From: Acetobacteraceae bacterium
Lineage (GTDB): Bacteria > Pseudomonadota > Alphaproteobacteria > Acetobacterales > Acetobacteraceae
Length of the DNA stretch: 41,279 bases
Direction of reading: 5' to 3'
Assembly: GCA_025354865.1 (NCBI GenBank)
Contig: JANXMB010000093.1
Span: 1-41,279 of the forward strand
Every line of letters starts with the position of its first letter. The first letter of the stretch is position 1. Positions 5,473 through 41,279 of the stretch are shown piece by piece. The notes below the pieces were generated by a model that made no database searches, had not been told where the DNA came from, and saw nothing but the letters and a program-made list of their open reading frames with translations. A program made the translations under genes and the position numbers.

Positions 5473-6173
5473 CCATCTACCCCCAAATGCCGGTGCATCG
5501 TCGCGGGATCGCGCAGCAACCCGTCCGGCGCCCCGCTGTAGACGGTCGCGCCCTTGACCAGCACGACGACGCGATCTGCCAGAGACAGCACCGCCGAGAC
5601 GGTCTTGTCCACGACCAGAATGGCCACTCCGGCGTCGCGCACCAGAGCGATCGTATGCCAGATCTCGTCGCGGATCAGCGGCGCCAGCCCCTCGGTCGCT
5701 TCGTCCAGAATCATCAGGCGGGGGTTGGTCATCAAGGCGCGCCCGATGGCGAGCATCTGTTGCTCCCCGCCCGACAGATGATTGCCGCGATGCAGGATGC
5801 GTTCGGCGAGGCGGGGGAAGACGGACAGCACCCGCTCTTCGGTCCAGGCGCCACCGGGCCTAGCGGCAAAGCGCAGGTTTTCCCGCACCGACAGGCTGGC
5901 AAAGATGCCGCGTCCTTCGGGTACGGTTGCAATGCCGGCCCGCGCACGTTGGAAGGGTTTCAGGCTGGCGGCATCGACGCCGTCCAACAGGACGCTGCCG
6001 CTGCGGGGCGGCAGGAGGCCGAGCAGACTGCGTATGAGGGTTGTTTTGCCCATGCCGTTGCGGCCCATGAGGCCGACGACCTCGCCCGGGTGGATAGCTA
6101 TCTGGATATCGTGTAGTACCAAATTGGTACCGTAGCTAGCGGATAGCCCCTTGGCTTCCAGGATAGCCGTCAT
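5469..6173 (-). CDS. livF: Liv-type ABC transporter ATP-binding protein LivF (system 1)
   Basis: One of two nucleotide-binding subunits of a hydrophobic amino acid/amide-type importer at the inner face of the membrane. It has 234 residues, with Walker A GRNGMGKT (37-44), the signature LSGGEQQ, and Walker B LMILDEATEGLAP. The switch region reads ILVVDKTVSAVLSLADR instead of the more common LLVEQN form, a variant that I recall from a LivF subgroup. It overlaps the livG stop by four bases upstream and the rsmG start by four bases downstream. The substrate cannot be read from this subunit. Confidence 0.93.
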   Translation of the reverse strand: MTAILEAKGLSASYGTNLVLHDIQIAIHPGEVVGLMGRNGMGKTTLIRSLLGLLPPRSGSVLLDGVDAASLKPFQRARAGIATVPEGRGIFASLSVRENLRFAARPGGAWTEERVLSVFPRLAERILHRGNHLSGGEQQMLAIGRALMTNPRLMILDEATEGLAPLIRDEIWHTIALVRDAGVAILVVDKTVSAVLSLADRVVVLVKGATVYSGAPDGLLRDPATMHRHLGVDG

Positions 6174-8666: not shown

Positions 8667-9838
8667 ACCGGCATTTTGCACCCGGTGCCCGGGTCCGCCA
8701 GTGCCTCGGCGGCCGGGCCGATCACCTTGTTTTCACCGTTGCGGGCTTCCCGCAGCCAGATCGTCTGCACCGGGTTGTGCGACGCGGAAAGGGTGAACGC
8801 CCCGCGCGGACTGTCGATCTTGGTTGCTCGAATGCCGGCGGCGAGTGCTTTGACAGCCGCCGCATCGCCCTTCGTCGCAGCGAGGCCCGCCGCAAGCATC
8901 TGCCCCGCATCGTACCCCTGTACGGCATAGACGTCGGCCGAGCGGTTGGTGGCTTTGGCGAACGCCTCACGGAACCATTTGTTTTTGGCGTTATCCAGGC
9001 CGTCGCCGTAGTGCAGCGCGGTTTGAATCCCCTCGGCTGCGGCGCCTTGCGCCTTCAACACGCCCTCGGTCAGGAAGCCGGAACCGCACAGCGGGATTTT
9101 GTCGCGCAGGCCCGCCGCCGCGTAATCTTTGACGAACTGGATCGCCCCGCCGCCGGCAAAGAACGATCCGACCGCATCGACGCCGAGCCCGGGGATTTGT
9201 GCCAGCAGCGGCTGGAAGTTGGTCTCGGGGAACGGCAGGGTCAGGACATGGGTCAACTCGGCCCCGCCGGACTTCAGGCCATCCCGGAAGCCTTCCGCGG
9301 ATTCCCTGCCGGCTGCATAGTCCCAGGTGACCCAGGCCGCCTTCTTCACGCCCTTTGCCGCCAGCACCTTGCCCATCCCGTAGGCCGGCTGCCAATTGCT
9401 GAACGACGAACGGAACACCGAGGGGGAGCACAGGTCCCGCGTCGCCGCCACATTCCCGGCATTGGGAATGAACAGCGGCACCTCTTTCTCTTTGGCCGCT
9501 TGCACCAGCGCCATCACCACGCCGGAGTGCACGGTGCCGACCAACGCATCGACATTGTCGCGGCCCAGCAGGCGGTTGACGTTGGCGGGCGCCTTGGCCG
9601 GATCCGATTCATCGTCCAACCGCACCAGCGTGACCGCGCGGCCGCCGAATTTGCCGCCGTTCTCGGTCAGGCAAAGCTCGAACGCGGCGGCGATGTTTTC
9701 CCCGAGCGCGGCGAATGTGCCGGAGAACGGCAGCATCAGGCCAACTTTCAAAGGCGCGCCCTGGGCGATCGCCGGGCGTGCCAGGGCACCGATGGCGAGG
9801 CTTCCGCCGAGCACAGTGCGTCGCGATAGTTGGGTCAT
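8663..9838 (-). CDS. Liv-type ABC transporter periplasmic substrate-binding protein (system 1)
   Basis: The receptor of the first Liv-type importer, 391 residues, first gene of the operon. The N-terminus SRRTVLGGSLAIGALARPA is a twin-arginine-type signal, with cleavage probably after AIAQ, so the protein may be exported folded. The mature part begins with LKVGLMLPFSGTFAALGEN, the usual first strand and loop of the type I periplasmic binding fold (Peripla_BP_6). I chose ATG 9838 because the twin arginine motif starts five residues later; the longer frame from 9868 adds nothing recognisable. It diverges from the MaoC gene with 78 bases between starts, where the operon promoter must lie. The ligand is unknown; this family binds branched amino acids, amides and aromatic acids. 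Confidence 0.9.
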   Translation of the reverse strand: MTQLSRRTVLGGSLAIGALARPAIAQGAPLKVGLMLPFSGTFAALGENIAAAFELCLTENGGKFGGRAVTLVRLDDESDPAKAPANVNRLLGRDNVDALVGTVHSGVVMALVQAAKEKEVPLFIPNAGNVAATRDLCSPSVFRSSFSNWQPAYGMGKVLAAKGVKKAAWVTWDYAAGRESAEGFRDGLKSGGAELTHVLTLPFPETNFQPLLAQIPGLGVDAVGSFFAGGGAIQFVKDYAAAGLRDKIPLCGSGFLTEGVLKAQGAAAEGIQTALHYGDGLDNAKNKWFREAFAKATNRSADVYAVQGYDAGQMLAAGLAATKGDAAAVKALAAGIRATKIDSPRGAFTLSASHNPVQTIWLREARNGENKVIGPAAEALADPGTGCKMPV

Positions 9839-24398: not shown

Positions 24399-25580
24399 TC
24401 AGAAGGTAAACAACGGCCGGTCCGGCTTACGGCCCAACAGCACCTGCCCAACCGTTTCGAAGTGCTCGGGATGCCCCTGAATTTGCTGCGTCACCGTATG
24501 CATGTCGCGGAACCGGCGCTCGAACGGGCGGGCGCCGAAAATGGCCATCGCGCCGGCTGCCTCATACAGCGCCGCAACCACCTGCTTCGCCGATTGTATC
24601 GCGAATGTGGACGCAAGGCGGATGGCAACAAGCTCGTCCTGCGTCATGTGCCCCCGCGTGCGGGCCGCACCCCACACGTCGGATACGGTGACCAGCAGGT
24701 AGGTGCGAGCGGCCCGCAACCGAGCCTCGTTCCAGCCCACATGCGCTTGCATGACGTGGTTTTCCGATCGTGGCCGGCTGCCGCCGCGTGGCATGGACCC
24801 GGCGGCTTCCTGGACGAACGATGTCATCACGCTGCGGGCGATGCCCAGCGCAATCCCGGCGAAGCTGCCGGCGTAAAGAGTGCTAGGGGTGAAGACATAC
24901 AGATCGCCTTTGACCCGCGGCTTGGCGGAGCCGTCGCGCTTCATCGTGTAGGCTTCGGGAATGAACAGATCGCTCGCCGTGTAGCTGTCGCTGCCGGTGC
25001 CGCGCAGACCCATAGTTTGCCAGGTGTCGCGGACCTCGACCGTGGTTTTGCGGAAAAACATCGTGGCGCTGAGCGGCTTGCCGTCCTGCCCGAGGCGTTT
25101 GGACCCGTCGGGCTCGACGACCGGCACATGCGCGCCTAGCCAGGTCGCGAGGCGGGAGCCGGAGGCGAAGTCGAAGCTACCGGATAACCGATAGCCGCCT
25201 GGTACTACTTTGGCTTCCCCAGGGCCGGGACCCCAGGCCAGAATGCCCGTGTCCGGACCGAAGATGTCCGCGACGACCGCCGGTTCCAGATAGGCGGCGG
25301 TCAGTGCGCAGATATTGGTCTGCCCGACGCACCAGGCGGTGCTGGCGTCGTGGCTGGCGATTTCCTCGATGACTTGCACCAGGGATGGAGGGTCCAGCTC
25401 TGCTCCGCTATAGTCCTCCGGCTGCACGAGACGGAACAGACCGCGCTCGCGCAGGGCGGCGAACAGCGAGGCCGGAAGGTCGCGTGCTTGCTCGATTTCA
25501 TTCGCCGCAGCGTCGATCGCGGGACCGAGGTCGCGTGCGCGCTGCAGGTAATCGATTCCTTTGGTACTGAGGGTTTGCAT
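24399..25580 (-). CDS. Acyl-CoA dehydrogenase-fold flavoprotein (possible group D monooxygenase)
   Basis: A 393-residue protein with the acyl-CoA dehydrogenase fold. The N-terminal helical domain (EIEQARDLPASLFAALRERG, then LFRLVQPEDYSGAELDP), the SHDASTAWCVGQ segment, the beta domain with TWQTMGLRGTGSDSYTASD, and the C-terminal four-helix bundle are all visible. The pattern with RGTGS in the beta domain recalls two-component flavin monooxygenases (HsaA, DszC and p-hydroxyphenylacetate hydroxylase types) more than true dehydrogenases, and I see no obvious catalytic glutamate. The start is ATG 25580; the frame open to 26129 is a shadow. No flavin reductase gene is adjacent, so the reaction is uncertain. 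Confidence 0.83.
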   Translation of the reverse strand: MQTLSTKGIDYLQRARDLGPAIDAAANEIEQARDLPASLFAALRERGLFRLVQPEDYSGAELDPPSLVQVIEEIASHDASTAWCVGQTNICALTAAYLEPAVVADIFGPDTGILAWGPGPGEAKVVPGGYRLSGSFDFASGSRLATWLGAHVPVVEPDGSKRLGQDGKPLSATMFFRKTTVEVRDTWQTMGLRGTGSDSYTASDLFIPEAYTMKRDGSAKPRVKGDLYVFTPSTLYAGSFAGIALGIARSVMTSFVQEAAGSMPRGGSRPRSENHVMQAHVGWNEARLRAARTYLLVTVSDVWGAARTRGHMTQDELVAIRLASTFAIQSAKQVVAALYEAAGAMAIFGARPFERRFRDMHTVTQQIQGHPEHFETVGQVLLGRKPDRPLFTF

Positions 25581-25613
25581 GGTGCAGGACGTCCGGCGCG
25601 TTGAGCCTCGATC

Positions 25614-26138
25614 ATGGAGCAGGACCGCGATGCCTTCAACCCGAGCGCACGGGTCCGGCGGAGCGGCGTCGTGAACCGTCGGGCGGTGTTCGCGCTGTGT
25701 GTTCTGGGGGGTGTGGGGGCGTGGGCCTATCCGCGTTATTTCGGCCCGGGCGCAACATGTGCGTTGCCGACCCCGGCGGATTCTGTGCCGCATATCGAAT
25801 TGGGCAAAGGCGGCATGCCACTGTCCGTCGTGCCCGGCTGGGTCGCGCGTTTGGATCGGGCCACCAATCCGATTGCGTTCAAAGCAACCGGTGCAGCGGC
25901 CGAATTGCGCGGAGTCGCCTTCGAAGGCGGCGTGTTCGGCCGCCAGGTGGTTCCCCTCCACGGCTCGGTTGCCGCGCTCGCGATCGCCGGCAAGAAATAC
26001 GAGATCCGGAATGGTAATTTCGTGTCCGGCTGCATCGACGTGCAGGGGCTGGGGAAAATGATCGTGTTGTTTTCCAATTCCCTTACCCCAACTGCGACGA
26101 TCGTGCTGACCGACCCGCAGTTGGCTCATCTGCGGTAG
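25614..26138 (+). CDS. Hypothetical secreted or membrane-anchored protein
   Basis: A protein of 174 residues (from ATG 25614) or 155 residues (from GTG 25671). The later start has GGAG 7 bases upstream and would begin NRRAVFALCVLGGVGAWAYP, a clean signal or anchor; the earlier start adds a basic cytoplasmic tail and lacks a clear ribosome binding site. The rest has cysteines in GATCALPTP and FVSGCIDV that may pair in the periplasm, and beta-rich segments such as GGVFGRQVVPLHGSVAALAI and KKYEIRNGNFVSG. I do not recognise a family. It diverges from the flavoprotein gene across 33-90 bases and converges on xthA, with 6 bases between the stops. Confidence 0.72.
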   Translation: MEQDRDAFNPSARVRRSGVVNRRAVFALCVLGGVGAWAYPRYFGPGATCALPTPADSVPHIELGKGGMPLSVVPGWVARLDRATNPIAFKATGAAAELRGVAFEGGVFGRQVVPLHGSVAALAIAGKKYEIRNGNFVSGCIDVQGLGKMIVLFSNSLTPTATIVLTDPQLAHLR

Positions 26139-27720: not shown

Positions 27721-28815
27721 TTACCCTTCGACCACGAAGGCGCGCCATGCCGAACGCCCGGTGGCTTCGCGCAGCAATCCCTCATCGGTCAGGCGCTTCA
27801 GCAGGTCGAGCGCCGAGCGGGTGGATACGCCGATACCCTCCCCCAGGCCGCGGGCCGTCACCACGGGTTCGCGCAATGCGAAGGCCACGGCGTCCGCGAG
27901 GTGGGATCGCCCGCCGGCCTTCAACGCCGCCGCTTTGCGTTCGACCCCGATCAGCACGCCCAGTTCCCGGCGCCCGCGCAAGGCGGCCTCGGCAATGCAG
28001 TCGAGGTAGTGGATTTGGAATTCGCTGCCGGCTTTTTGCGCCAGGGCGTCGATCCGCGAAAGCGGCGCGGACCAGAAGGGCAAGGCGATGCTGCGGCCGT
28101 AGCCGTGCGCGCGCCACAGGCAGGCGGCGACGTAGGTGGCGCCCGGTTCCAGCCGATCGCCGCGTCCGCGTTCGGGTAGCCCGCCGGCAACGACCCCGGC
28201 GGCCGCCAGCAATCCGGGGGTCTGGTTGCGATTGGGCAGCGTATCCGACCAGTCGGAAAGCGCGGTTTCGTCCAAACCGCCGGCGCCGAGCAGCGCGAGG
28301 GCGGCGGGCCAGCGGTCGAGGCGGTGGTTGCCGGGCTGGGTGGCCAATTGGCGCCATAGCTTGGCGTAGTGGAGGGCGCGATCGACGATCCAATCTTGGG
28401 GGGCGGTGTCGCGATCGAGGCCGATGGCGGCACTCCAGGGCAGTTCGTTCGCCAGGGTTCCGAGGATCGAGGCGGCGGCATAGGATCCGGTCAGACCGGC
28501 TTCATGTAGTGCCAGATCGCGCGGATGTACGGTGGTTTGCAGATGGCCGAGGAAGCCCGACGCCTCGTGCAGGGATAAGCGGGCGCGCAATCCGGTCGCG
28601 ATGTCGGGGGAGGCAGCGTCGAGACCGGCTTCCAGGCGGGCGATGGCATCCTGAGCGCGTGCCAGCGGGATCGGCAGGGCGTCCGGGCGCGGCCGTTCGG
28701 CAACCGGCCAGAAGTTCGGGATGGACGCGTCGTCCTCGGGCGGCCGATCGTCGAATTGCCAGGATGGCGGCAGGAAATCTTCGTCGGGAGCGGCGGATTC
28801 GACCTCGAACGGCAC
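27721..28815 (-). CDS. Helix-turn-helix protein resembling the DUF1612/RHE_PE00001 family
   Basis: A 364-residue protein with GTG start 28815 and AAGGA 8 bases upstream. The N-terminal half holds the segment [20 protein letters not shown] followed by RDLALHEAG, which resembles the Fic-like and DUF1612-type pattern in rhizobial plasmid proteins of the RHE_PE00001 group. The C-terminal 80 residues form a winged helix-turn-helix: [20 protein letters not shown], then [17 protein letters not shown] and a final wing, as in the C-termini of Fic-type proteins. It is probably a DNA-binding regulator. It diverges from the second Liv transporter and oxygenase cluster across a 277-base intergenic region with two related dyads. 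The family name is from memory and only moderately sure. Confidence 0.6.
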
Positions 28816-29092: not shown

Positions 29093-30286
29093 ATGAAGAA
29101 ATATCTGGCGGTTCTCGCCGCCTCGACCATGTTTGTCTCGGTCGCCCAGGCGCAATCGATCAAGATCGGCCTCAGCGGGCCGTTCACCGGCGGATCGGCG
29201 TCCATGGGCGTGTCGATGCGCGACGGGGTGAAGCTCGCCGTGGCCGAGATCAACAAGGCTGGCGGCGTGTTGGGCCGGCAGATCCAATTGGTCGAGCGCG
29301 ACGACGAAGCGCGCAACGAGCTGGGTGTGCAGATCGCGCAGGAACTGATCAATAAGGAACAGGTTGTCGCCAACCTCGGCTACATCAATACCGGTGTCGC
29401 GTTGGCGTCCCAGCGGTTCTATCAGGAAGCCGAGATTCCGGTGATCAACAACGTCGCCACCGGCACCCTGATCGCCAAACAGTTCCTGCCGCCCGACAAC
29501 AAGGCCAACTATATCTTCCGCACCTCGGCCAACGATGCCATCCAGAGTGCGATGATCGTCGATGAGGCCATTACGCGCCGTGGTTTCAAAGCGCCGGCGA
29601 TCCTCGCCGACAGCACGAATTATGGGCAACTCGGTCGGGCCGACCTTGTGAAGGCGCTGGAAGCCAAGGGCGTGAAGCCGGTCGCCGAAGAAAAATTCAA
29701 CATCGGCGACACCGACATGACCGCGCAGTTGCTGCGTGCGAAGAATGCCAACGCCGATGTTATTCTGACCTACGGCATCGGCCCCGAACTGGCGCAGATC
29801 GCCAACGGGATGGCGAAATTGGGCTGGAAACTGCCGCTGATCGGTAGCTGGACCCTGTCCATGGCGACCTTCATCGACAATGCGGGCGCAAACGGCGACG
29901 GCGCCGAAATGCCGCAGACCTTCGTCCAAATACCGACCACGCCAAAGCGCAAAGCCTTCATCGAGGCGTATCAGGCGGCCTACAAGGTGGATCGCTTCCC
30001 CTCCCCGGTGTCGGCGGCGCAAGGCTACGACAGCGTCTATTTGCTGGCCGCCGCGATTACCCAGGCGAAGTCGACCGACGGGCGTAAAATCCGGGAGGCG
30101 TTGGAGAACCTGCAAACCAAGGTCGATGGCGTCGTGACGGTCTACGACCACCCGTTCTCCGCCACCGATCACGAAGCGATCACCGCCAATATTCCGGTGT
30201 TCGGCATCGTGAAGGGCGGCCGGGTCGAGATCGCCCATCCGGAAGACATTGCCGGCGACAAGGCGTTGCGCGTGAAGGCGCACTAA
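29093..30286 (+). CDS. Liv-type ABC transporter periplasmic substrate-binding protein (system 2)
   Basis: The receptor of a second Liv-type importer and the first gene of the oxygenase-linked cluster; 397 residues. It has a Sec signal (MKKYLAVLAASTMFVSVAQA, cleaved about after residue 20), then IKIGLSGPFTGGSASMGVSM, the start of a type I periplasmic binding fold. The strands with GRQIQLVERDDEA and YGIGPELAQIANGMAKLGW are typical of Peripla_BP_6. I use ATG 29093; ATG 29081 would add four residues. The last codons and stop (RVKAH, TAA) are copied in a 30-base tandem repeat just downstream. Many members bind aromatic acids rather than branched amino acids, which fits the downstream oxygenase, but the ligand is unproven. 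Confidence 0.92.
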   Translation: MKKYLAVLAASTMFVSVAQAQSIKIGLSGPFTGGSASMGVSMRDGVKLAVAEINKAGGVLGRQIQLVERDDEARNELGVQIAQELINKEQVVANLGYINTGVALASQRFYQEAEIPVINNVATGTLIAKQFLPPDNKANYIFRTSANDAIQSAMIVDEAITRRGFKAPAILADSTNYGQLGRADLVKALEAKGVKPVAEEKFNIGDTDMTAQLLRAKNANADVILTYGIGPELAQIANGMAKLGWKLPLIGSWTLSMATFIDNAGANGDGAEMPQTFVQIPTTPKRKAFIEAYQAAYKVDRFPSPVSAAQGYDSVYLLAAAITQAKSTDGRKIREALENLQTKVDGVVTVYDHPFSATDHEAITANIPVFGIVKGGRVEIAHPEDIAGDKALRVKAH

Positions 30287-30377
30287 ACGACCTTGACGCG
30301 CGTGAAGGCGCACTAAACGACCTTGTTGCGCGTGAAGGCGCACTAACCAATCTTGTTGCGCGTGACGGCGCACTAAC
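30266..30377 (+). repeat. 30-base tandem repeat of a gene end and stop codon, about four copies
   Basis: The end of the binding-protein gene (TTGCGCGTGAAGGCGCAC then TAA) recurs with an exact 30-base period. The repeated CGTGA(A/C)GGCGCACTAA begins at 30271, 30301, 30331 and 30361. Copy 4 has one change (AAG to ACG) and the spacer varies slightly. Because 30 is a multiple of three, each copy carries an in-frame TAA. In most copies TGCGC and GCGCA can form a short stem with a six-base loop, so the message would have a string of small hairpins before livH. Confidence 0.95.
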
Positions 30378-30442
30378 CGCTTCTCTTTTGCCGCTGCCAT
30401 GGTGGGCATAGCCCCGCCATGGCGCACCACCGGACCCTCGAT

Positions 30443-31315
30443 ATGCAAATTCTCGCCCAGCTCATCGTCAGCGGCATCGCCGTCGGGATGATCTATGGGG
30501 TCATCGCGTTCGGCTATCAGTTGACCTTCGCCACCTCCAAAACCCTCAATTTCGGCCAAGGGGAGGCACTGATGCTCGGCTCCCTGGTCGGGCTGACGGC
30601 GGTTGCCTATGTCGGCTACTGGGCGATGCTGCCGATCGTGCTGGTCTTCGGGCTAATGCAGGGTGCGGTCGTGGAACGCCTGGGGGTGCGGCGGGCGATC
30701 GAAACCCGGTCGGAGGCAGGGTGGATCATGGCCACCATCGCGCTGGGCATCATCTTCAAGAATCTGGCCGAAAACATCTGGGGCCGCGATGCGTTGAAAT
30801 TCCCCTCGCCGCTGCCCGAGGCGCCGATCGGGTTCATGGGCGTCAATGTCCTGCCGATGGAAATCGCGATCGTCGTCGGCGCCCTCGGACTGATGTTGTC
30901 GATCGAACTGTTCAACCGCCGGTCCATTTACGGGAAGGCGGTGGTCGCAACCGCCAACGATCGCGACGCAGCGGGGCTGATGGGGATCGATACGTCGTTG
31001 GCGATTTCGTTCTCCTACGCGCTGTCGTCGATGACCGCCGCGTTCGCCGGCGTGCTGGTCGCGCCAGTGACCCTCACCGGTGCGTCGATGGGCGGGGCGC
31101 TTGGGTTGAAAGCCTTCGCGGTGGCTATCATCGGCGGGCTTTCCAGCGGCATGGGGGTGGTGGTCGGGGGGCTGATCCTCGGCGTAACCGAGACCCTGAC
31201 CGGCTACTATATATCGACCGGCTATAAGGATGTGCCCGGCCTAGTGCTGCTGCTGCTGGTGTTGTCGTTCAAGCCCTCCGGCCTGTTCGGCAAGGCCGCG
31301 ATCAAGAAGGTCTGA
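30443..31315 (+). CDS. livH: Liv-type ABC transporter permease LivH (system 2)
   Basis: A 290-residue inner-membrane permease with about eight hydrophobic helices. MQILAQLIVSGIAVGMIYGV is the standard LivH beginning and is why I choose ATG 30443 over ATG 30419. LNFGQGEALMLGSLVGL replaces the usual NLAHG motif region, and GGLSSGMGVVVGGLILGVTE is the conserved late segment. It follows the tandem repeat array after 65 bases and is five bases from livMG. It pairs with the LivM half of the next protein to form the channel. Confidence 0.9.
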   Translation: MQILAQLIVSGIAVGMIYGVIAFGYQLTFATSKTLNFGQGEALMLGSLVGLTAVAYVGYWAMLPIVLVFGLMQGAVVERLGVRRAIETRSEAGWIMATIALGIIFKNLAENIWGRDALKFPSPLPEAPIGFMGVNVLPMEIAIVVGALGLMLSIELFNRRSIYGKAVVATANDRDAAGLMGIDTSLAISFSYALSSMTAAFAGVLVAPVTLTGASMGGALGLKAFAVAIIGGLSSGMGVVVGGLILGVTETLTGYYISTGYKDVPGLVLLLLVLSFKPSGLFGKAAIKKV

Positions 31316-31320
31316 TCGCC

Positions 31321-33303
31321 ATGCCAATCCGCACACTCGCGATGTTCGCCGGGATCGTCGGCCTCGCGCTGTTCCCCTTCTTCGCCACCAGCCCGTACTA
31401 TCTGCATCTCGTCGTGGTGGTGGCGATCTTCTCGATCGTGACGATCGGCCTCGACATCGTGTTCGGCTACACCGGGGAGGTTTCGATCGGCCACGCCGCC
31501 CTGATGGGGATCGGTGCTTACACGGCCGGCGTGCTGGCGTTCCAACTCGGCATCGGATTCTGGCCGTCATTGCCGTTGGCAGTCATTGTTTCCGCCGCAT
31601 TCGGGGCGGTGCTGGCGCTGCCGGCGCTGCGGGTGACCGGCCCCTATCTGGCGATGGTCACGCTGGCTTTCGGCACCATCGTGCAAATCCTCATCAACGA
31701 AATGACATTCCTGACCAACGGTCCGCTCGGCATCGCGCTGAAGAAGCCGCTCTTCCTCGATCTGCGCGAGTGGGGGGGAACGATCCCGTTCCTCGATATG
31801 TCGGCTGCGCGCATGCGGGACGTGGAGTTCTATTTCGTCGTCGTGGCGGCGCTGCTGCTGACATTGGTGGTGGTGAACCGGCTGCTTGCGTCCCGCTACG
31901 GACGTGCGTTCGAGGCGTTGCGCGATAGCCCGATCGCCTCCGACTGCATGGGTGTCAGCGTCTATCGCCACAAGGTCCTGGCCTTCGTGCTGTCGTCGGG
32001 GCTGGCCGGTCTGGCGGGCGTGCTGTTTGCCTATTCCGAACAATATATCGCGCCGAATAACTTCAGTTTCGAGCTGTCGATCCAGTTTTTGCTCGCCGTG
32101 ACCATGGGGGGACGCAAGTCCCGGGTCGGCCCGATGATGGGTTCGGCGATCGTGGTGTATTTGCCCAATCTCTTGGCCGACATCGACCAGTTCCGCGTGG
32201 TGGCCGGCGGTATTGCCGCGATCGCCGTCGTCGCGGGCGGAATCGCCATGCTGCGCAAGCCCGAGGACCGCACCCGCATCGCCATCCCGGTCGTGTTATG
32301 CGTTGGGTTCTTTGCGTTCTCCCTGGCGCTGCAACGGATCACTGACTTCAAGCTGACCGTGTTCGGCATGATGATCCTGTTCGTCGTCTACTATTTGCCG
32401 GACGGGCTGTTCGGCTTCCTGCGGCAAGCCGTCGCGCAGGTCCGCCCCGCCTGGGTTCGCCTGCATCCCAGGATCGACGCCACCGGGACCCAGGCTTGGG
32501 CCGCAATGCCCGCGACGGTCGCCGAGGGCGCGCCTTTGCTCGAAGTCGGCGCCGTGGTCATGCAGTTCGGCGGTTTACGGGCGTTGGATCGGGTCGATCT
32601 GACCGTGATGCCGGGCACCATCCATGGGCTGATCGGGCCGAACGGATCGGGCAAAAGCACGATGATGAACGTGCTGACCGGCATTTACATCCCGACCGAC
32701 GGGTCGGTACGGTTCCAGGGCGCCCCGATCGCCGGCCATAAATCCCCGGAAATCGCAGCGGCCGGCATCGCGCGCACGTTCCAGAACGTGCAGTTGTTCG
32801 CCGAACTGACGTCGATCGAAAACATCATGGTCGGCCTGCACCACCGCTACCGCGGCACCGTGGCCGGCGTCGCGCTCGGCTTGCCCGGCGCCCGGCTGGA
32901 AGAAGCGGATGCAAGAGCGCGGGCGGCGAGCTTGCTGCGGTTTGTGGGGTTGCAGGATCAGGCGGATGAGGAGGCACGCAATCTCCCGTACGGGAAGCAG
33001 CGCATGCTGGAAATCGCCCGCGCGCTGGCGCTGGATCCGAAGCTGCTGCTGCTGGACGAACCCGCCGCCGGGCTGACCGCACCCGATATCGTCGAGCTGA
33101 TGACGATCGTGCGCCGTATTCGCGACGAGGGAATCACGATCGTGCTGATCGAACATCATATGGATGTCGTGATGAATTTGTGCGACACCGTAACCGTGTT
33201 GGACTTCGGCCAGAAAATCGCCGAGGGCCGCCCGGCCGAGGTACAGGCCGACGAACGGGTGATCGCCGCCTATCTCGGCAGCGCACCCGCCGACGCGGCC
33301 TGA
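31321..33303 (+). CDS. LivM-LivG fusion: permease and ATP-binding protein in one chain (system 2)
   Basis: A 660-residue fusion of two normally separate Liv subunits. Residues 1 to about 385 are a LivM permease (FGYTGEVSIGHAALMGIGAY; a cytoplasmic loop with EALRDSPIASDCMGVSVYRHK; several helices). A linker rich in A, P and T (about 385-405) follows. Residues about 405-660 form a LivG ATPase with Walker A GPNGSGKST (439-447), GIARTFQNVQLFAELTSIEN, the signature NLPYGKQRMLEIARALA, Walker B LLLLDEPAAGLT, and switch histidine in VLIEHHMDVVMNLCD. The frame is continuous, so this is not a sequencing artefact that is visible here. The extra membrane helices near 320-370 are typical of longer LivM forms. 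It sits between livH and livF. Confidence 0.92.
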   Translation: MPIRTLAMFAGIVGLALFPFFATSPYYLHLVVVVAIFSIVTIGLDIVFGYTGEVSIGHAALMGIGAYTAGVLAFQLGIGFWPSLPLAVIVSAAFGAVLALPALRVTGPYLAMVTLAFGTIVQILINEMTFLTNGPLGIALKKPLFLDLREWGGTIPFLDMSAARMRDVEFYFVVVAALLLTLVVVNRLLASRYGRAFEALRDSPIASDCMGVSVYRHKVLAFVLSSGLAGLAGVLFAYSEQYIAPNNFSFELSIQFLLAVTMGGRKSRVGPMMGSAIVVYLPNLLADIDQFRVVAGGIAAIAVVAGGIAMLRKPEDRTRIAIPVVLCVGFFAFSLALQRITDFKLTVFGMMILFVVYYLPDGLFGFLRQAVAQVRPAWVRLHPRIDATGTQAWAAMPATVAEGAPLLEVGAVVMQFGGLRALDRVDLTVMPGTIHGLIGPNGSGKSTMMNVLTGIYIPTDGSVRFQGAPIAGHKSPEIAAAGIARTFQNVQLFAELTSIENIMVGLHHRYRGTVAGVALGLPGARLEEADARARAASLLRFVGLQDQADEEARNLPYGKQRMLEIARALALDPKLLLLDEPAAGLTAPDIVELMTIVRRIRDEGITIVLIEHHMDVVMNLCDTVTVLDFGQKIAEGRPAEVQADERVIAAYLGSAPADAA

Positions 33304-33316
33304 GGGGGGCGAGGAC

Positions 33317-34039
33317 ATGCTGCGGGTTGAAAACCTTGTCGCCGGTTATGGCAAAGTGCAGGTGCTGCACGCGATCTCCCTCGAAGTGCCGAAGGGCTCG
33401 TTGGTGACTTTGATCGGATCGAACGGAGCTGGCAAAACCACCACGCTGCGGGCGCTTTCGGGCATGATCGTGCCGCAGTCTGGCCGTATCGTCCTGGGTG
33501 GACAGGATATCGCGGGGTTGCCGTCGCATAAAATCGTGCGTCGCGGCATGGCGCACTCGCCGGAGGGGCGGCATGTGTTCGGCACCTCGTCGGTCGAGGA
33601 CAATCTGCTCCTGGGTGCATTTACCCGCCTGACCGGCGGACGCGGCAAGGGCGATGTGAAGGCCGATATCGATCGCATGTATGCGATGTTTCCGCGGCTC
33701 GCCGAACGGCGGACGCAACTTGCGGGGACGCTGTCGGGCGGCGAACAACAGATGCTCGCGATGGCCCGCGCTTTGATGCTCGCGCCGGATGTGCTGCTGC
33801 TCGACGAACCGTCGATGGGTCTCGCGCCCCGGCTGGTGGAGGAAGTATTCGCCACCATCGCCCGACTGAAGGAGCAGCGCATTACGATGCTGCTGGTCGA
33901 GCAATTCGCCGCCGCCGCGCTGGATGTCGCGGATTTCGGCTACGTCCTGGAAAACGGGCGGCTGGCCGCGTCGGGGACGGCTGCGGCGTTGAAGACGGAC
34001 CCGGCGGTGCAGGCTGCTTATCTCGGCCAGGCGCACTGA
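33317..34039 (+). CDS. livF: Liv-type ABC transporter ATP-binding protein LivF (system 2)
   Basis: The second ATPase of importer system 2, 240 residues, starting 13 bases after the fusion gene with GGGGCGAGG as a likely ribosome binding site. Walker A GSNGAGKT (34-41), GMAHSPEGRHVFGTSSVEDN, signature LSGGEQQMLAMARALM, Walker B VLLLDEPSMGLAP, and LLVEQFAAAALDVAD are all standard for LivF. Because the only other ATPase domain of this system is fused to the permease, the assembled transporter would contain one LivH, one LivM-LivG fusion and this protein. Confidence 0.94.
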   Translation: MLRVENLVAGYGKVQVLHAISLEVPKGSLVTLIGSNGAGKTTTLRALSGMIVPQSGRIVLGGQDIAGLPSHKIVRRGMAHSPEGRHVFGTSSVEDNLLLGAFTRLTGGRGKGDVKADIDRMYAMFPRLAERRTQLAGTLSGGEQQMLAMARALMLAPDVLLLDEPSMGLAPRLVEEVFATIARLKEQRITMLLVEQFAAAALDVADFGYVLENGRLAASGTAAALKTDPAVQAAYLGQAH

Positions 34040-34090
34040 TCGATCGCCGCCCAACGGGTTTCCCCTTGACGCGGGCCGGGGTGCTGTTCA

Positions 34091-34152
34091 CCTTCGATCG
34101 AAGGAAGGGGGACGCACACCCCACGCGACCGTAGACCGCAAGGCCCGGTCGC
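34091..34152 (+). promoter_or_regulatory. Palindrome and hairpin upstream of the Rieske oxygenase genes
   Basis: CCTTCGATCGAAGG (34091-34104) is a perfect 14-base palindrome and could be an operator. It is followed by a stem of GCGACCG (34125-34131) with CGGTCGC (34146-34152). Both lie in the 134 bases between livF and the oxygenase alpha gene, so the oxygenase may have its own control step. I could not match the leader to a known riboswitch and found no clear promoter. Confidence 0.4.
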
Positions 34153-34173
34153 CCGCAACGCTGGAGACCGGCC

Positions 34174-35427
34174 ATGCCCGATACAATCGTGCCGTCCACC
34201 CTAGCCTCGGTTTCTGGCCATTGGCCGGCGGGGCTCAGCCGCGTGCCGTTCTGGCTCTATAGCGACCCCGACATTCTGCGCGCCGAGCAACGCAAGATCT
34301 TCGAGGGTCCGGCGTGGCATTTCCTGTGTCTCGAAATCGAGATCGAGAATATGGGCGATTACCGCACCACAGAGATCGGCGACATGCCGGTTGTCGTGGT
34401 GCGCGGCGAAAACAATGCCATCAACGCCTTCGAAAACCGCTGCGCCCATCGTGGCGCGCTGATTGCTTTCGCCAACAAAGGCACCGTCAAGGATTTCGTC
34501 TGCGCGTATCACGCCTGGCGCTACGATCTGCAAGGCAACCTCTGCTCCGTCGCGTTTCAGCGCGGCGTTGCCGGCAAGGGCGGGATGCCGGACGATTTCC
34601 GCATGCAGGATCATGGCCCCCGCAAGCTGCGCGCCGAGAGCATCGGCGGTCTGGTGTTCGGCACCGTCGATCCGGCCGCGCCGTCGCTGCGGGACTATCT
34701 GACCCCGCCGATCGTCGCGAAGATCGAACGTGTGTTCAACCGCAAGTTGGAGGTCATCGGCCGCTTCACCCAGACCCTGCCGAACAACTGGAAGCTCTAC
34801 GCCGAGAACATCCGCGATACCTATCACGCCAGCCTGTTGCACCTGTTCTTCACGACCTTCCGCATCACCCGCTTCAATCAGGCCGGCGGTGTAACAATCA
34901 GCGAGGACGGGGCGCATCATGCCTCCGCCACCATCGGTCGCACCGAGGCATCCGACGACGTCTACAAGCAACAGGACCTCCGCTCGGACGACGACGCATT
35001 CCGTCTGCACGATCCCTCGTTTCTGGATGCGGTGAAGGAGTTCGGCGACGATATACAGTTGCAGAACGTGGCGCTGTTTCCGGCGACCATGCTGCAACAA
35101 CTGCATAACTCGATCGCCGTGCGCCAGACCGTGCCGCGCGGCATCGACAGCATGGACCTGCACTGGACCTTCCTCGGGTTCGCCGACGACACGCCGGAGA
35201 TGCGGCTGCGGCGGCTGCGGCAGGGCAACCTCGCAGGGCCGGCGGGCTATGTGTCGATGGAAGACGGCTGTATTGGCGGTTTCGTCCAACGCGGCGTCGC
35301 CGCAGCGCCCGAGGAAAACGGCATCATCGAGATGGGCGGGCGCGACGCCACGTCGATGGCCACGCGGGCGACCGAGGCGTCGGTGCGCGGCTTCTGGAAA
35401 GCCTACCGCGCCATGATGGGACTCTGA
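34174..35427 (+). CDS. Rieske ring-hydroxylating oxygenase alpha subunit, terephthalate dioxygenase (TphA2)-like
   Basis: The catalytic subunit of a Rieske non-haem iron oxygenase, 417 residues. The Rieske cluster ligands are C90, H92, C110 and H113 (CAHRG and CAYHAW). The mononuclear iron site is in ENIRDTYHASLLH, with bridging D215, H218 and H223. From memory, most of the C-terminal half (RSDDDAFRLHDPSFLD, NSIAVRQTVPRG, GPAGYVSMEDGCIGGFVQRG, RATEASVRGFWKAYR) matches Comamonas TphA2 of about 413 residues. The two arginines I recall as binding the terephthalate carboxylates (R309 and R390 there) align with R317 and R398 here with the same offset of eight. GGAG lies 8 bases before ATG 34174. 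No reductase or dihydrodiol dehydrogenase gene is in the window. The substrate is inferred, not shown. Confidence 0.88.
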   Translation: MPDTIVPSTLASVSGHWPAGLSRVPFWLYSDPDILRAEQRKIFEGPAWHFLCLEIEIENMGDYRTTEIGDMPVVVVRGENNAINAFENRCAHRGALIAFANKGTVKDFVCAYHAWRYDLQGNLCSVAFQRGVAGKGGMPDDFRMQDHGPRKLRAESIGGLVFGTVDPAAPSLRDYLTPPIVAKIERVFNRKLEVIGRFTQTLPNNWKLYAENIRDTYHASLLHLFFTTFRITRFNQAGGVTISEDGAHHASATIGRTEASDDVYKQQDLRSDDDAFRLHDPSFLDAVKEFGDDIQLQNVALFPATMLQQLHNSIAVRQTVPRGIDSMDLHWTFLGFADDTPEMRLRRLRQGNLAGPAGYVSMEDGCIGGFVQRGVAAAPEENGIIEMGGRDATSMATRATEASVRGFWKAYRAMMGL

Positions 35428-35431
35428 GGCG

Positions 35432-35878
35432 ATGCTGTTCCGTCTATCCGCCCTCAATTCCGCCTATGCCGCCGCGATCGACAACGACCGGCTGGAGGAT
35501 TGGCCGGCGTTTTTCGCCGAGCAGTGTCTGTATAAGATTACGACGGCCGAGAACCATGCCGAGGGTTTGGCTGCCGGGCTGATCTACGCGGACTCCCAGG
35601 GCATGTTGAAAGACCGGGTCGCTGCGCTGCGAAAGGCCAATATTTACGAATATCATGCCTATCGCCATCTGATCGGCATGCCGACAATACTGAGCGAGGA
35701 TGCCGACGGCGCACGTTGCGAGACCCCATTCTTTGTCGCCCGCATCATGCGCGATGGCACGACCAGCCTGTTTGCCACCGGACGGTACTTGGACCTTGTC
35801 AAAGACGGGCGTTTCGTCGAGCGGATCGTGGTCTGCGATAGCGCGCGGATCGATACGTTACTGGCGATCCCGTTGTGA
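35432..35878 (+). CDS. Rieske ring-hydroxylating oxygenase beta subunit, TphA3-like
   Basis: The small, non-catalytic subunit (NTF2-like fold) of the oxygenase, 148 residues, starting four bases after the alpha stop. LNSAYAAAIDNDRLEDWPAFF, NHAEGLAAGLIYADSQGMLK, DRVAALRKANIYEYHAYRH and the ending VCDSARIDTLLAIPL agree closely with my memory of TphA3 (about 154 residues), which ends DTLMALPL. It stabilises the alpha3beta3 hexamer. The close pairing and similarity of both subunits support one enzyme of the terephthalate/benzoate class. A small direct repeat follows the stop codon. Confidence 0.88.
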   Translation: MLFRLSALNSAYAAAIDNDRLEDWPAFFAEQCLYKITTAENHAEGLAAGLIYADSQGMLKDRVAALRKANIYEYHAYRHLIGMPTILSEDADGARCETPFFVARIMRDGTTSLFATGRYLDLVKDGRFVERIVVCDSARIDTLLAIPL

Positions 35879-35883
35879 CGGGA

Positions 35884-35919
35884 TACGATTGACGCTCTGC
35901 GTCGAGTTACGATTGACGC
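35884..35919. repeat. Short direct repeat after the oxygenase beta gene
   Basis: TACGATTGACGC occurs at 35884-35895 and again at 35908-35919, a period of 24 bases, just after the stop codon of the beta subunit. It resembles on a small scale the gene-end duplications at 19689 and 30266. No function is apparent. Confidence 0.6.
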
Positions 35920-35971
35920 GCCGCGTGGGGCGCCGCATTTTGCCCGACCGCAATAGCAGGGATGCCGTCGC

Positions 35972-37189
35972 ATGGCGCTGAGCCGCACTACCCGGGTCAA
36001 TATTCTGATTGGCAACGGCCATTTCCTCTCGCATTTCTACGTCATCTGCCTGCCGCCATTGTTCCTGGCGTGGCAAAGCACCTTCGACGTCACGTTTGCC
36101 CAACTCGGCCTGACGGTCGCGATGATGTCGGGCACGACTGCGCTGTTGCAAACCCCGGTCGGCTTCCTGGTGGATCGGTACGGCGCCCGCGCCTTCCTGG
36201 TTGGCGGCACTTTGTTGATGTCGCTCTCGATCGCTGCCATGAGCCAAGCGACCGCGTTCTGGCAGATACCGCTGTTGGCGGTGCTTTCCGGCATGGGCAA
36301 CTCGGTGGTGCATCCAGCCGACTACGCGATCCTGTCCGGCTCGGTCGATCCGAAGCAGATGGGCAAATCCTTCGCGATGCATACGTTCAGTGGCAATCTC
36401 GGCGGGTCGATCGCGCCACCGGTCATTGCACTGCTGACCGTGGCGATCGGTTGGCGGCACGCCATGCTGTTGGTCGGATTGCTGGGTGTGCCCGTTGTGA
36501 TCTCGATTTTGTTGCAAAGCTCGATTCTCAAGGATCAGGCGCGCGTGGTTGCCAAGACCGGCGGCGTGTCGGTCGGGTGGCGGGAGCTGTTGTTCAGCCG
36601 CTCCATTCTGCTGTTCTTCTCCTTCTTTCTGCTGGGGTCGATGGCCGGCGGCGGGGTGCAATCCTGGATGGTGACCGTCCTGCACACGGTGAAGGGGATG
36701 GATCTGCAAATCGCCTCGACCGCATTGACGACCTACATGGTGGGCGGCACGGCCGGCGTGTTGGTGGGCGGTTGGTTCGTCGACAAGCATCGCAAGCATG
36801 TATTGGTCTTCGCGTCCGCCCTCACCACGACATCTGCCCTCACGATGCTCGCCGTCAACTGGTTGCCGCCGCTCGGCGTCGGCGTCTGGGTGCTGACCTT
36901 TGTCGCCGGGACGGCGTTGGGCGCCAGCCGCACGCCCCGCGATGTAATGCTGCGCGATGCCGCACCCCCCGGTCAGATCGGCAAGGTGTTCGGCTTCGTC
37001 AGCGCCGGGCTGCCATTGGGCGGGGCGATCACCCCGGTGCCGTTCGGTTATCTGATCGATAAGGGGCATCCCGAGCTGGTTCTGGTGCTGGTGGCGGTGT
37101 TGTTGTTGGCGAGCCTGTTTTGCGCCGGCACCGCGCGCAAAGTGGCGGCGCGGGACGAAGCCGCCGCTGCGACCGGCGCTGGGGACTGA
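35972..37189 (+). CDS. Major facilitator superfamily transporter
   Basis: A 405-residue, probably 12-helix inner-membrane transporter. NGHFLSHFYVICLPPLFLAW opens the first helix. GFLVDRYGARAFLVGGTLL is the MFS loop 2-3 motif (G-x-x-x-D-R-x-G), and its second-half counterpart is GGWFVDKHRKHVL. The pattern of the first helix recalls the fosmidomycin-resistance-like branch, but that does not fix a substrate. ATG 35972 has AGGGA 9 bases upstream. It is last in the oxygenase cluster, 93 bases after the beta gene, and could export a product or take up the same aromatic acid. Confidence 0.88.
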   Translation: MALSRTTRVNILIGNGHFLSHFYVICLPPLFLAWQSTFDVTFAQLGLTVAMMSGTTALLQTPVGFLVDRYGARAFLVGGTLLMSLSIAAMSQATAFWQIPLLAVLSGMGNSVVHPADYAILSGSVDPKQMGKSFAMHTFSGNLGGSIAPPVIALLTVAIGWRHAMLLVGLLGVPVVISILLQSSILKDQARVVAKTGGVSVGWRELLFSRSILLFFSFFLLGSMAGGGVQSWMVTVLHTVKGMDLQIASTALTTYMVGGTAGVLVGGWFVDKHRKHVLVFASALTTTSALTMLAVNWLPPLGVGVWVLTFVAGTALGASRTPRDVMLRDAAPPGQIGKVFGFVSAGLPLGGAITPVPFGYLIDKGHPELVLVLVAVLLLASLFCAGTARKVAARDEAAAATGAGD

Positions 37190-37927: not shown

Positions 37928-37996
37928 CTGTATGGCGCCGGTCAGCGGTGCCGACCGGAAAAACACCCCGATGCAAAGGGGTAGGAGTTGCTGGTG

Positions 37997-40900
37997 ATGA
38001 AATTAGTACTCGAGCCACGCTACCTTTTCGACGGCAGCCTCGCAGCGGTCACAAAGCCCGTCGCGGATGCCGCCCATGCGGATTCAACCGGCCAGGGGGC
38101 GGACAACACCGTTGTCCTCGCCCATGTTCTCGCCACCGACTCAGGCACGACAGCGCCCGCTGCCGACGTGCCCGGTTTGGCAACGAACGCCGCTGCGCAT
38201 CAACTCCTGTTCGTCGATCCGCGCGTTGCGAACTGGCAATCGCTGGCCGGTTCGGTGTCCGGCGATACCCAGGTCGTGGTTCTCGATCCCACCAAGGACG
38301 CGGTCGCGCAGATCACCCAAACCCTGGCTAATCGGTCCGATATCCAAACCATCGGCATTCTGGCGTACGGTTCCGCCGGCCAGATGGAGATCGGCAATAC
38401 CCCCTTCGACGCCGCTGCAGTCAATGCGCATGCCGCCGATATCGCGACCTGGAGCGATCATCTCGCCGCCGGCGCCAATATTCAGTTCTGGGGATGCGAC
38501 GTTGGCGCGGGTTCGGGCGGGCAGGCGCTGCTGACCGACCTCCACTCCCTTACCGGCGCCCATATCATGGCGTCCGACACTGCGATCGGTGCTGCCTCCC
38601 TCGGCGGTCGGTGGACGTTGGATGTGTCCGATAACGGTGCTTTGGCGCCGGATGCCGTTGCCGCGCCGTTCGGTGCCGCAGCCGAAGCTGCCTATACCGG
38701 GATACTCGACACCGCCGTTCCGACCGTCACGATCTCCGGCGTGCCCGGCAACATTCTGCTCGGCGGCACATTTTCCGAAACGGTTACGTTGTCCAATACG
38801 GCGTCCCATGCCACCGGCACCGGCGCCTATTTGGAAGTCTTCGCGCCGGCCAATGGCACCGAGAATGCTGCGTTGACCTCGGCGACTTTCGATGGCCAAA
38901 GCCTTTCCATCGCATCGGTGACCTTGCAAGCCGACGGCGCGGGGCACGTATTTGCCGCCGATCCGCACATGCTCGCCGCCGATGGTAGCCAATTGTCGAT
39001 CAATGCGCCCACCGGTTTCCGCGCGGGCGATCATATGTATGTGATCGATCTGCCGGTGAGCGGCGGCAGTCTGGCGGCGGGGGCCAGCGCCGATCCGGTG
39101 CTGCTCAATTTCCAATTGGCGGATAAAGGGTCCGTCACGACGACGGGCGGCCTGTCGATTGCGGCGATCGGCGGGTTCGTCGACGGCGGCGGCGCGGCCG
39201 TGCGCGGCACCAACCCGGTCGAGGGGCCGCAAGCAACCGACAAAGGCAACGGGCTTGCGGTCGCCAATTCGAATGTGACGCTGCTAAGCGCCGAGGCGGC
39301 GATTACCTACGTCAGCACCAATACCGGCGCCACCAGCCCGACGGTCTATGAGCTGACCTTGACCTCGGCGCCGGCCCTTGCTGCCAACCCGCTGCATAAC
39401 TTCGAATATTCGGTCGCGCTGCCCAGCGGCGCGTCGTACAGCGGCTCGACGATCGAAATTGCCGGCGTCGGCGCTTCCGGCGCTACGGCGTCTGTGGTGT
39501 CCAGCGGCTCGGGGCAGATGCTCCAATTCGCTATTCCGGAACTTGCGGCCGGCGCGACGACCTTCCGGCTTTTGGTTAATGGTGCCGGCGGTGCGAGCAC
39601 GCTGCCATCGTCGGCCGACCCCTCGATCACGGTCAATGGGATATTCCCGCTCGGCGGAAAAACAGCAGATACCACCACCTATTTGGCAACATCCTGGGAT
39701 GGCACGACGCAGAGTGTGGCGTTAACGCAATTCGACACCTCCCTGGGCACGCTGGACGACGTTAAATTGTCCTTCACGGGCTACACGCATACGACTGCGA
39801 CTGCGAAGAATACCGGCGCCGCGACCGGGGCGGTGACCGCCGGTAAGTTGTCCGAGCAGATGGATATTCTACCGCCGGGCACGACGGGGGCGGGCCTCAT
39901 AGCTGCGAATGCGTTGCTTGAGGTGATTCCGGTGTCGTTGAACCTCAGTACTGCGACGAAGGTGACTGCGGGCGCGTCGGTGACGTTGCCGACTGTCGAT
40001 GCCAATGTGTCATCCTCCGTGGCCACGATCACGAATGCCACGAGCCTGCTGGCTTATGAGGGCACCGGATCGGTGTCGTTGCCGTTGCTGACCAAAGCCG
40101 TGCAGACCATCGGAACGGCCGGCGGCAATATTACCGTGAGCATTTCGTCGAGCGCCCTGGTAACGGCCAGTATCACCTATGACTATACTGTCGCGGTTGC
40201 GACGCCGGCCAGCTTCACGGCGCATGTCTATACGGACAAGACAGCCAACAACACGCAGGACGGCACCGATCCCAACCTTGCCGGTGTGACGGTGCGGTTG
40301 CTGGATGGCAGCGGCAATCCTGTCACCTCTGGCGGCGCGGCTGTGACCGGCACGACCGACGCCAGTGGCAATGTGAGTTTCACCGGGTTGACCCCGGGAT
40401 CGTATCAGGTGGCGGTTACGACCCCGTCTGGCGATACGGTGACCGAGCATACCAACGTGTCTACGGTGAACGTGCTGGCCTCCGGTGGCTCGGCCAGCGC
40501 CGTTGAGGGCTTGTTTGGACCTGCTGCCTTCACCGCCCACGTCTATACCGACAAAGCCGGCAACAACACGCAGGATGGCACCGATACCAATCTAGCCGGC
40601 GTGACGGTCAATCTGTTGGACGGCAGTGGCAATCCTGTCACCTCTGGCGGCGCGGCCGTGACCGGCACGACGGACGCAAGCGGCAACGTCACCTTCACCG
40701 GGTTGACCCCGGGATCGTATCAAGTGTCGGTTACCACCCCTTCGGGCACGACGGTTACGGAGCATACCAACGTCAGTACAGTGAACGTGTTGGGGTCCGG
40801 TGGCACCGCAACCGCTATCGAGGGCGTGTATGTGCCCGCGACCTTCACCGCTCACGTCTACACCGACAACAATGCGAACAGCACCCAGAACGGCGGCGAT

Positions 40901-41279
40901 CCCAACCTGCCCGGCGTGACGGTGCGGCTGCTGGATGGCAGCGGCAATCCGGTGACCTCGGGCGGCGTTGCCATCACCGGGACGACGGATGCGAGCGGCA
41001 ATGTCAGCTTCACCGGCCTGCCGCCGGGGACGTATCAGGTGGCAGTCGTAACACCCTCGGGCGACGCGGTGACGGAGCGGACCAATGTCTCCACCCCGAT
41101 CGTGTTGGGTCCCGGCGGGTCCGCAAGTGCTATCGAGGGCGTCTATGTCCCCGCGACCTTCACCGCTCACGTCTACACCGACAACAATGCGAACAGCACC
41201 CAGAACGGCGGCGATCCCAACTTGCCCGGCGTCACCGTCGAATTGTTGAGTGGTAGCGGCGATCCGGTCTTGGTCGGGG
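37997..41279 (+). CDS. Very large secreted adhesin-like protein with DUF4347 head and SdrD-B-like repeats (3' end outside window)
   Basis: An open frame of 1094 codons with no stop before the window end, starting at ATG 37997 with AGGAG 9 bases upstream. It begins MKLVLEPRYLFDGSLA, the LEPR motif of large surface proteins. Residues about 70-235 are a DUF4347 domain: LLFVDPRVANWQSLAG, QVVVLDPTKDAVAQI, then AYGSAGQ (Y124) where the family usually has a histidine (HGSAG), WGCDVGAG with C167, and a GGRWTLDVS ending. Residues about 240-555 resemble DUF11-type cell-surface repeats. Residues about 558-735 resemble a choice-of-anchor-E domain (LGTLDDVKLSFTG ... ITYDYTVAV). From about residue 740, SdrD-B-like domains follow with a 105-residue period. 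No N-terminal Sec signal is visible, so type I secretion is likely. Its role is probably adhesion or biofilm formation; this is inferred. Confidence 0.9.
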   Translation, partial: MKLVLEPRYLFDGSLAAVTKPVADAAHADSTGQGADNTVVLAHVLATDSGTTAPAADVPGLATNAAAHQLLFVDPRVANWQSLAGSVSGDTQVVVLDPTKDAVAQITQTLANRSDIQTIGILAYGSAGQMEIGNTPFDAAAVNAHAADIATWSDHLAAGANIQFWGCDVGAGSGGQALLTDLHSLTGAHIMASDTAIGAASLGGRWTLDVSDNGALAPDAVAAPFGAAAEAAYTGILDTAVPTVTISGVPGNILLGGTFSETVTLSNTASHATGTGAYLEVFAPANGTENAALTSATFDGQSLSIASVTLQADGAGHVFAADPHMLAADGSQLSINAPTGFRAGDHMYVIDLPVSGGSLAAGASADPVLLNFQLADKGSVTTTGGLSIAAIGGFVDGGGAAVRGTNPVEGPQATDKGNGLAVANSNVTLLSAEAAITYVSTNTGATSPTVYELTLTSAPALAANPLHNFEYSVALPSGASYSGSTIEIAGVGASGATASVVSSGSGQMLQFAIPELAAGATTFRLLVNGAGGASTLPSSADPSITVNGIFPLGGKTADTTTYLATSWDGTTQSVALTQFDTSLGTLDDVKLSFTGYTHTTATAKNTGAATGAVTAGKLSEQMDILPPGTTGAGLIAANALLEVIPVSLNLSTATKVTAGASVTLPTVDANVSSSVATITNATSLLAYEGTGSVSLPLLTKAVQTIGTAGGNITVSISSSALVTASITYDYTVAVATPASFTAHVYTDKTANNTQDGTDPNLAGVTVRLLDGSGNPVTSGGAAVTGTTDASGNVSFTGLTPGSYQVAVTTPSGDTVTEHTNVSTVNVLASGGSASAVEGLFGPAAFTAHVYTDKAGNNTQDGTDTNLAGVTVNLLDGSGNPVTSGGAAVTGTTDASGNVTFTGLTPGSYQVSVTTPSGTTVTEHTNVSTVNVLGSGGTATAIEGVYVPATFTAHVYTDNNANSTQNGGDPNLPGVTVRLLDGSGNPVTSGGVAITGTTDASGNVSFTGLPPGTYQVAVVTPSGDAVTERTNVSTPIVLGPGGSASAIEGVYVPATFTAHVYTDNNANSTQNGGDPNLPGVTVELLSGSGDPVLVG
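40214..41279 (+). repeat. 315-base tandem coding repeats (SdrD-B-like), at least four copies
   Basis: Copies begin at FTAHVYTD codons at 40214, 40529, 40844 and 41159, each exactly 315 bases (105 residues) apart; the fourth runs off the window. Each has a G-D-PNL-GVTV strand, then LLDGSGNPVTSGG, TGTTDASGNV(S/T)FTGL, PPG or TPG with YQV, and TNVST. Copies 3 and 4 share about 70 identical bases across their start, which suggests recent duplication or conversion. Copies 1 and 2 carry TDK, whereas copies 3 and 4 carry TDN. Confidence 0.95.

Follow-up and report, generated by a model that had tools for sequence, protein, structure and literature searches.

The closest described systems to the genes studied here are the terephthalate dioxygenase TphA2-TphA3 (structures 7vju and 7q04), whose described operons use a tripartite tricarboxylate transporter (TTT) binding protein (PMC8556258), and the hyb genes of Pseudomonas aeruginosa JB2, in which hybABCD (salicylate to gentisate) is accompanied by an ATP-binding cassette (ABC)-type uptake system, hybEFGHI (PMC6050381). 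Kincannon et al. report that R309 is present cluster-wide, that N224, S243 and R390 contact the second carboxylate and can be proposed as a marker motif of terephthalate dioxygenase-type enzymes, and that I290 of TphA2 packs against the substrate ring; TphA2 converts 2-hydroxyterephthalate to protocatechuate with 100% coupling, the value for the 2-amino compound being 22% (PMC9060491). AromaDeg, as described by its authors, defines a group "related to terephthalate dioxygenases, substrate unknown" (PMC4250580). Here we analyzed 41,279 nucleotides from an Acetobacteraceae bacterium (assembly GCA_025354865.1, contig JANXMB010000093.1; "the window"), one entire contig (C45) of a 4.76 Mb genome in 190 contigs, where genes for a Liv-type ABC importer are followed by those for a two-subunit Rieske oxygenase and a major facilitator superfamily (MFS) carrier. 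We favor, with moderate confidence, the explanation that these are two functional units side by side, the Liv importer and the oxygenase with its MFS carrier, and that the oxygenase acts on a para-dicarboxylate other or broader than terephthalate.

The oxygenase pair carries PF00355, PF00848 and PF00866, a Rieske CxH-CxxH motif and a His-His-Asp iron site, as expected of a two-subunit ring-hydroxylating Rieske enzyme. The α subunit matches TphA2 at 55% identity (phmmer E ~1e-151 against 7vju and 7q04) and salicylate 5-hydroxylase (7c8z) at E 1e-88. We aligned 69 rows (67 distinct locus sequences plus two PDB chains), a selection of loci rather than all α matches, with tblastn pieces shorter than 330 residues dropped, and built a second tree of 60 rows after removing nine long-branch and outside rows, including salicylate 5-hydroxylase. 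The window's α falls in a 36-row clade of the 60-row tree (ultrafast bootstrap (UFBoot) 98/Shimodaira-Hasegawa-like approximate likelihood ratio test (SH-aLRT) 92), and the 69-row tree has the same layout. Its sister is an 18-row terephthalate-type clade (82/73) that holds TphA2 and TpaAa of Rhodococcus jostii RHA1. Forcing the window's seven-row sublineage, a group picked after the tree was built, together with the 18 terephthalate-type rows was rejected in an approximately unbiased (AU) test (p-AU 0.0008). The α subunit is thus a member of a lineage sister to the TphA2/TpaAa clade, and membership of the terephthalate clade itself was rejected on the 60-row tree and the AU test. The oxygenase joins AromaDeg's terephthalate-dioxygenase-related group by description rather than by a tree with AromaDeg representatives, and is like that group in standing next to, not inside, the terephthalate cluster (PMC4250580).

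The nearest α subunits are those of L039, which is the same contig as G270:C104 and whose genome is listed in the window's genus (93%), of G266 and G275 (88%), and of G269, G267 and G077 (77%). Branching deeper in the 36-row clade are a gene on a Variovorax WDL1 plasmid (59%) and four loci of Rhodospirillales/Enhydrobacter; all five have a linked TphB-like gene and TTT binding-protein genes at 35-52%, and the Variovorax locus also has a linked TphA1-like gene. Complete tph-type clusters occur within the family as well (L059 in G202, L061 in G062); their α subunits share 65% with TphA2 and 54-55% with that of the window.

In the alignment, R317 and R398 of the window stand opposite R309 and R390 of TphA2 with a constant offset of 8, just as the original prediction from this DNA had it, and the iron ligands also correspond (H218/H210, H223/H215 and D364/D356, window/TphA2). 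Since all 69 rows have R309, it is non-discriminating and says only "aryl carboxylate family". R390, on the other hand, is arginine throughout the TphA2-like superclade (58 rows) and in none of the 11 outside rows (it is methionine in the solved salicylate 5-hydroxylase), which makes a para-dicarboxylate-type substrate likely. The S243 position, S251 in the window, is serine in those 58 rows and in two of the 11 outside. The N224 position is T232 in the window; the window's clade has threonine there in 33 of its 36 rows, and the other 22 superclade rows have asparagine. Two of the three residues of the N224-S243-R390 motif are therefore kept (S251 and R398), and the motif as a whole is absent. 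The I290 position is N298, an asparagine found solely in the window's seven-row sublineage, and N298, T305 and L310 recur in no other row of the clade. The 18 terephthalate-type rows share 133 fixed columns; the seven rows all keep the identical residue at 111 of these and all agree on a different one at 14. As judged from the alignment, the predicted far-carboxylate contacts are largely kept and one predicted ring contact is changed. The original label of a terephthalate dioxygenase-like enzyme accordingly holds for overall similarity and for both arginines, but not for clade membership. Because the R309/R390 pair extends beyond the terephthalate clade, it is by itself unfit for annotating plastic-monomer degraders, and the change from I290 to N298 poses a concrete substrate question for this sublineage.

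We next consider whether the importer belongs with the oxygenase. Relatives' loci were read at a threshold of 150 bits (60 bits for α in Liv loci), with gene calls from a simple codon-score script rather than a trained gene finder. LivK relatives comprised 23 loci (L114-L136, 62-89% identity), with L137 and L138 (36-37%) and the scar locus L139 excluded; LivF is complete in 18, and in 14 the sequence runs on for more than 1.2 kb past it. The window's clade has 30 Acetobacteraceae relatives, of which we counted the flanks of 24, the other six having ~1.5 kb on each side; for 15 of the 24 each flank is 4 kb or longer, and some contigs are short. Neither α nor the window-type MFS was found in any of the 23 LivK-relative loci, and window-type LivK, TphB and the TphA1-type reductase were each found in 0 of the 24 oxygenase-relative loci, where a TTT binding protein occurs once and the window-type MFS twice (G270 and G266). 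MFS matches at E <=1e-60 are present in 108 of 249 family genomes. At the DNA level, one homologous block is shared with relatives, from 34154 (L039/G270) or 34163 (L188/G266) to 37196/37191; it begins 11-20 bases before the α start codon and ends just past the MFS stop. The conserved unit is thus α-β-MFS, in the window and two relatives. Since the homology starts at α and not at Liv, the importer and oxygenase look juxtaposed, and the importer appears to be an independent neighbor.

A locus in G270 bears on this history. At L139:9529-9888, pieces of LivK and LivF abut, and LivH and LivMG are missing. This apparent deletion scar adjoins an HTH_13 gene like the one next to LivK in the window, which suggests that the lineage formerly had Liv adjacent to HTH_13. 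The G270 α sits on a different contig, and the 438 bases upstream of it, up to the contig end, contain no Liv match. No Liv genes were seen beside the HTH_13 homologues of G266, G269 and G156. Across the 249 family genomes, 21 have LivK at at least 75%, 14 have an α placed in the window's lineage (a split match in G120 is unplaced) and three have both; all three belong to the window's genus, and the genes lie on separate contigs in the other two. The proposal of an uptake-plus-hydroxylation cassette with an ABC importer was tempting and is corrected here: the two parts stand apart in the relatives' loci read, and on the locus counts, the block edges and the scar we rejected a conserved cassette that includes Liv.

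Importers of this type do occur near related oxygenases. L057 and L058 each have a Liv operon other than this one no more than ~10 kb from their TphA2-like genes. In L046, α directly follows a gene for a PF13458 binding protein, and L214 combines a related oxygenase (40%) with Liv genes. Liv-type importers near such oxygenases therefore recur, and linkage of the window's own Liv operon was found in the window alone. Together with the hyb uptake genes (PMC6050381), the Liv genes of L214, L057 and L058 mean that ABC importers near this wider oxygenase family are not new. The expectation that tph clusters use TTT-type or MFS uptake agrees, for the TTT binding protein, with the described operons (PMC8556258). 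Like the hyb system, the window clusters a ring-hydroxylating oxygenase with an ABC importer, but the hyb substrate is a mono-carboxylate, unlike our reading of this oxygenase (PMC6050381). Compared with TphA2-TphA3, the window shares the α-β pair, the R309, R390 and S243 residues and the iron ligands, and differs in T232, N298, its sister lineage and the lack of linked TphA1, TphB, TTT or IclR genes. Judging by titles and abstract openings, we recognized no paper that deals with this oxygenase lineage or with a tph cluster containing a Liv importer, with subscription journals thinly covered. L057 and L058 (genus g16) carry a TpaAa-like α-β pair, 67-68% identical to TpaAa of RHA1, and a TTT binding protein, but within 9 kb nothing matched TphB or a TphA1-type protein. 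In L189 (G275) the α-β pair (88%) lies near PhzF-like, thiamine pyrophosphate (TPP)-enzyme and different MFS genes in place of the window's MFS.

In line with the original reading, neither the neighborhood within 9 kb of α (tblastn) nor the Pfam-scanned window genes yielded a gene of TphA1 or TphB type, and this extends to the genome, where none was found by PF00175 and PF04166, PF00355 and PF07992 not having been searched. PF00848 matched the window's own α only. PF00175 matched two proteins, CysJ (read from its sequence) and a PaaE-like flavin adenine dinucleotide (FAD)/2Fe-2S protein (389 bits against a TIGR02160 cut-off of 420.8). Both PF04166 matches exceed a PdxA cut-off and are 33.5-38.7% identical to six TphB-type proteins, whereas these six are 46-61% identical to one another. 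The genome also encodes PcaG and PcaH, both over cut-off, and a LigA/LigB-like pair in which LigB scores above cut-off for two subfamily models of class III extradiol enzymes and LigA below cut-off for its models. Since PcaGH is present, protocatechuate could be used.

Several points weigh against the favored explanation of two separate units and a para-dicarboxylate substrate. LivF and α are on the same strand with a spacer of just 134 bases, so read-through transcription is possible, and all five genus genomes with LivK at at least 62% also have an α match (α matches occur in 23 of 33 genus genomes overall, and LivK and α are on separate contigs in the four LivK genomes besides the window). 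Both observations would suit a recently formed operon for uptake and hydroxylation, with LivK and the oxygenase sharing one aromatic acid as ligand and substrate, as would the Liv-type or PF13458 genes near related oxygenases in L214, L057, L058 and L046 and the nearest PDB sequences of LivK, 4q6w and 4mpt, Bordetella proteins of which one is reported to have been solved with 3-hydroxybenzoate. We nevertheless consider such an operon unlikely, given the empty counts in both sets of loci, the three genomes with both genes, two of them with the genes on separate contigs, and a block of homology that begins at α. Other points concern the enzyme: support for the terephthalate-type clade is just moderate, and with T232 and N298 the pocket differs from that of any proven enzyme. 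The PaaE-like protein may be a candidate reductase, AndAa-type flavoprotein reductases and separate ferredoxins lying outside the search, and a natural supply of 2-substituted terephthalates is uncertain.

A true terephthalate dioxygenase with its reductase and dehydrogenase encoded elsewhere would explain the retention of R317, R398, S251 and the iron ligands, and in the deeper loci of the sister lineage α has TphB-like genes linked to it, in most of them TTT genes as well, and in the Variovorax WDL1 plasmid locus also a TphA1-like gene. This too we find doubtful, because neither partner was detected in the genome by PF00175 and PF04166, N298 replaces I290, and 14 columns consistently separate the seven-row sublineage from the terephthalate-type rows. 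Very improbable is a mono-carboxylate oxygenase of the anthranilate or salicylate type. AndAc is the best NCBIfam match of α, but at 412 bits against a curated cut-off of 750, and the R390 and S243 positions are not arginine and serine in three AndAc-like and four salicylate-5-hydroxylase-like rows; on these grounds an AndAc identity was rejected, and the 60-row tree also places α elsewhere. The β subunit scores 145 bits against the AndAd model (cut-off 230).

For the favored para-dicarboxylate oxygenase, we infer a mechanism like that of terephthalate 1,2-dioxygenase. R317 would hold the carboxylate at the reactive end, with R398 and S251 holding the far one, and electrons would come from an unlinked reductase, for which the PaaE-like protein is the sole PF00175 candidate besides CysJ. 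The substrate would be a para-aromatic dicarboxylate, perhaps 2-substituted (2-hydroxy- or 2-amino-type), a substituent proposed because TphB was not found: it would let the product rearomatize unaided to protocatechuate without a dehydrogenase, and PcaGH could then cleave the protocatechuate. A more speculative extension, which we regard as distinctly unlikely, is that a free-standing α-β lineage of Acetobacteraceae arose from terephthalate-type clusters and lost the dehydrogenase and reductase because it acts on 2-hydroxy/2-amino or heteroaromatic para-dicarboxylates whose products would convert to protocatechuate by themselves. In this reading the enzyme recognizes the ring substituent through N298 (perhaps with T305) and is fed by a general PaaE-like reductase.

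The Liv unit is a self-standing four-gene importer that occurs in several Acetobacteraceae genera. By subunit set and Pfam domains it corresponds to the LivKHMGF importer of the Escherichia coli type, differing in that LivM and LivG are fused, and its binding of branched-chain amino acids is putative. The fusion recurs (649-667 amino acids) in all 18 of the 23 LivK loci with a complete gene. Matches of the Liv proteins to PRK15404, PRK10740, PRK11301, PRK11300 and PRK11614 each fall under the model's cut-off (LivK against PRK15404, 112 bits; cut-off 477). The predicted order of all seven genes from LivK to the MFS gene on the plus strand was confirmed by open reading frames (ORFs) with the expected Pfam domains.

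Table 1. Positions of the importer, oxygenase and adjoining features in the window
Feature	Position	Strand	Basis
HTH_13 protein adjoining LivK	27721-28815	-	Pfam
LivK, periplasmic binding protein	29093-30286	+	PF13458
LivH permease	30419-31315	+	Pfam domain, ORF
LivM-LivG fusion, 660 amino acids	31321-33303	+	BPD_transp_2 at residues 28-286; ABC_tran at 422-582
LivF ATPase	33317-34039	+	Pfam domain, ORF
Homology junction within the LivF-α spacer	34040-34163	none	DNA alignment to relatives' oxygenase-MFS block
Rieske oxygenase α subunit, sister lineage to TphA2	34174-35427	+	Pfam, phmmer, tree
α key codons R317; R398; N298	35122-35124; 35365-35367; 35065-35067	+	Alignment to TphA2
Rieske oxygenase β subunit	35432-35878	+	Best PDB match is terephthalate dioxygenase β chain 7q04_A
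MFS carrier	35972-37189	+	Pfam; joined to α-β also in G270 and G266

Between 28700 and 38100, we found no sigma-70-like promoter sites (2.0 expected) and nine terminator-like sites (7.3 expected), and an Rfam scan of the window at gathering scores gave no matches. Elsewhere in the window, a further Liv-type operon at 5469-9814 (minus strand) has genes for an ATPase, two separate permeases and a binding protein by Pfam, with a probable second ATPase at 6170-6901 judged from position alone. An acyl-CoA-dehydrogenase-fold gene lies at 24399-25652 (minus strand); its nearest NCBIfam models are HsaA and the p-hydroxyphenylacetate 3-hydroxylase oxygenase, both matched below cut-off, and a 45% relative is found near the oxygenase in L190 and L191. 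Finally, the plus-strand gene at 37988-41279 encodes a protein with DUF4347 and SdrD_B repeats, contains a tandem array of a 315-base unit at 40213-41269 and runs off the contig.

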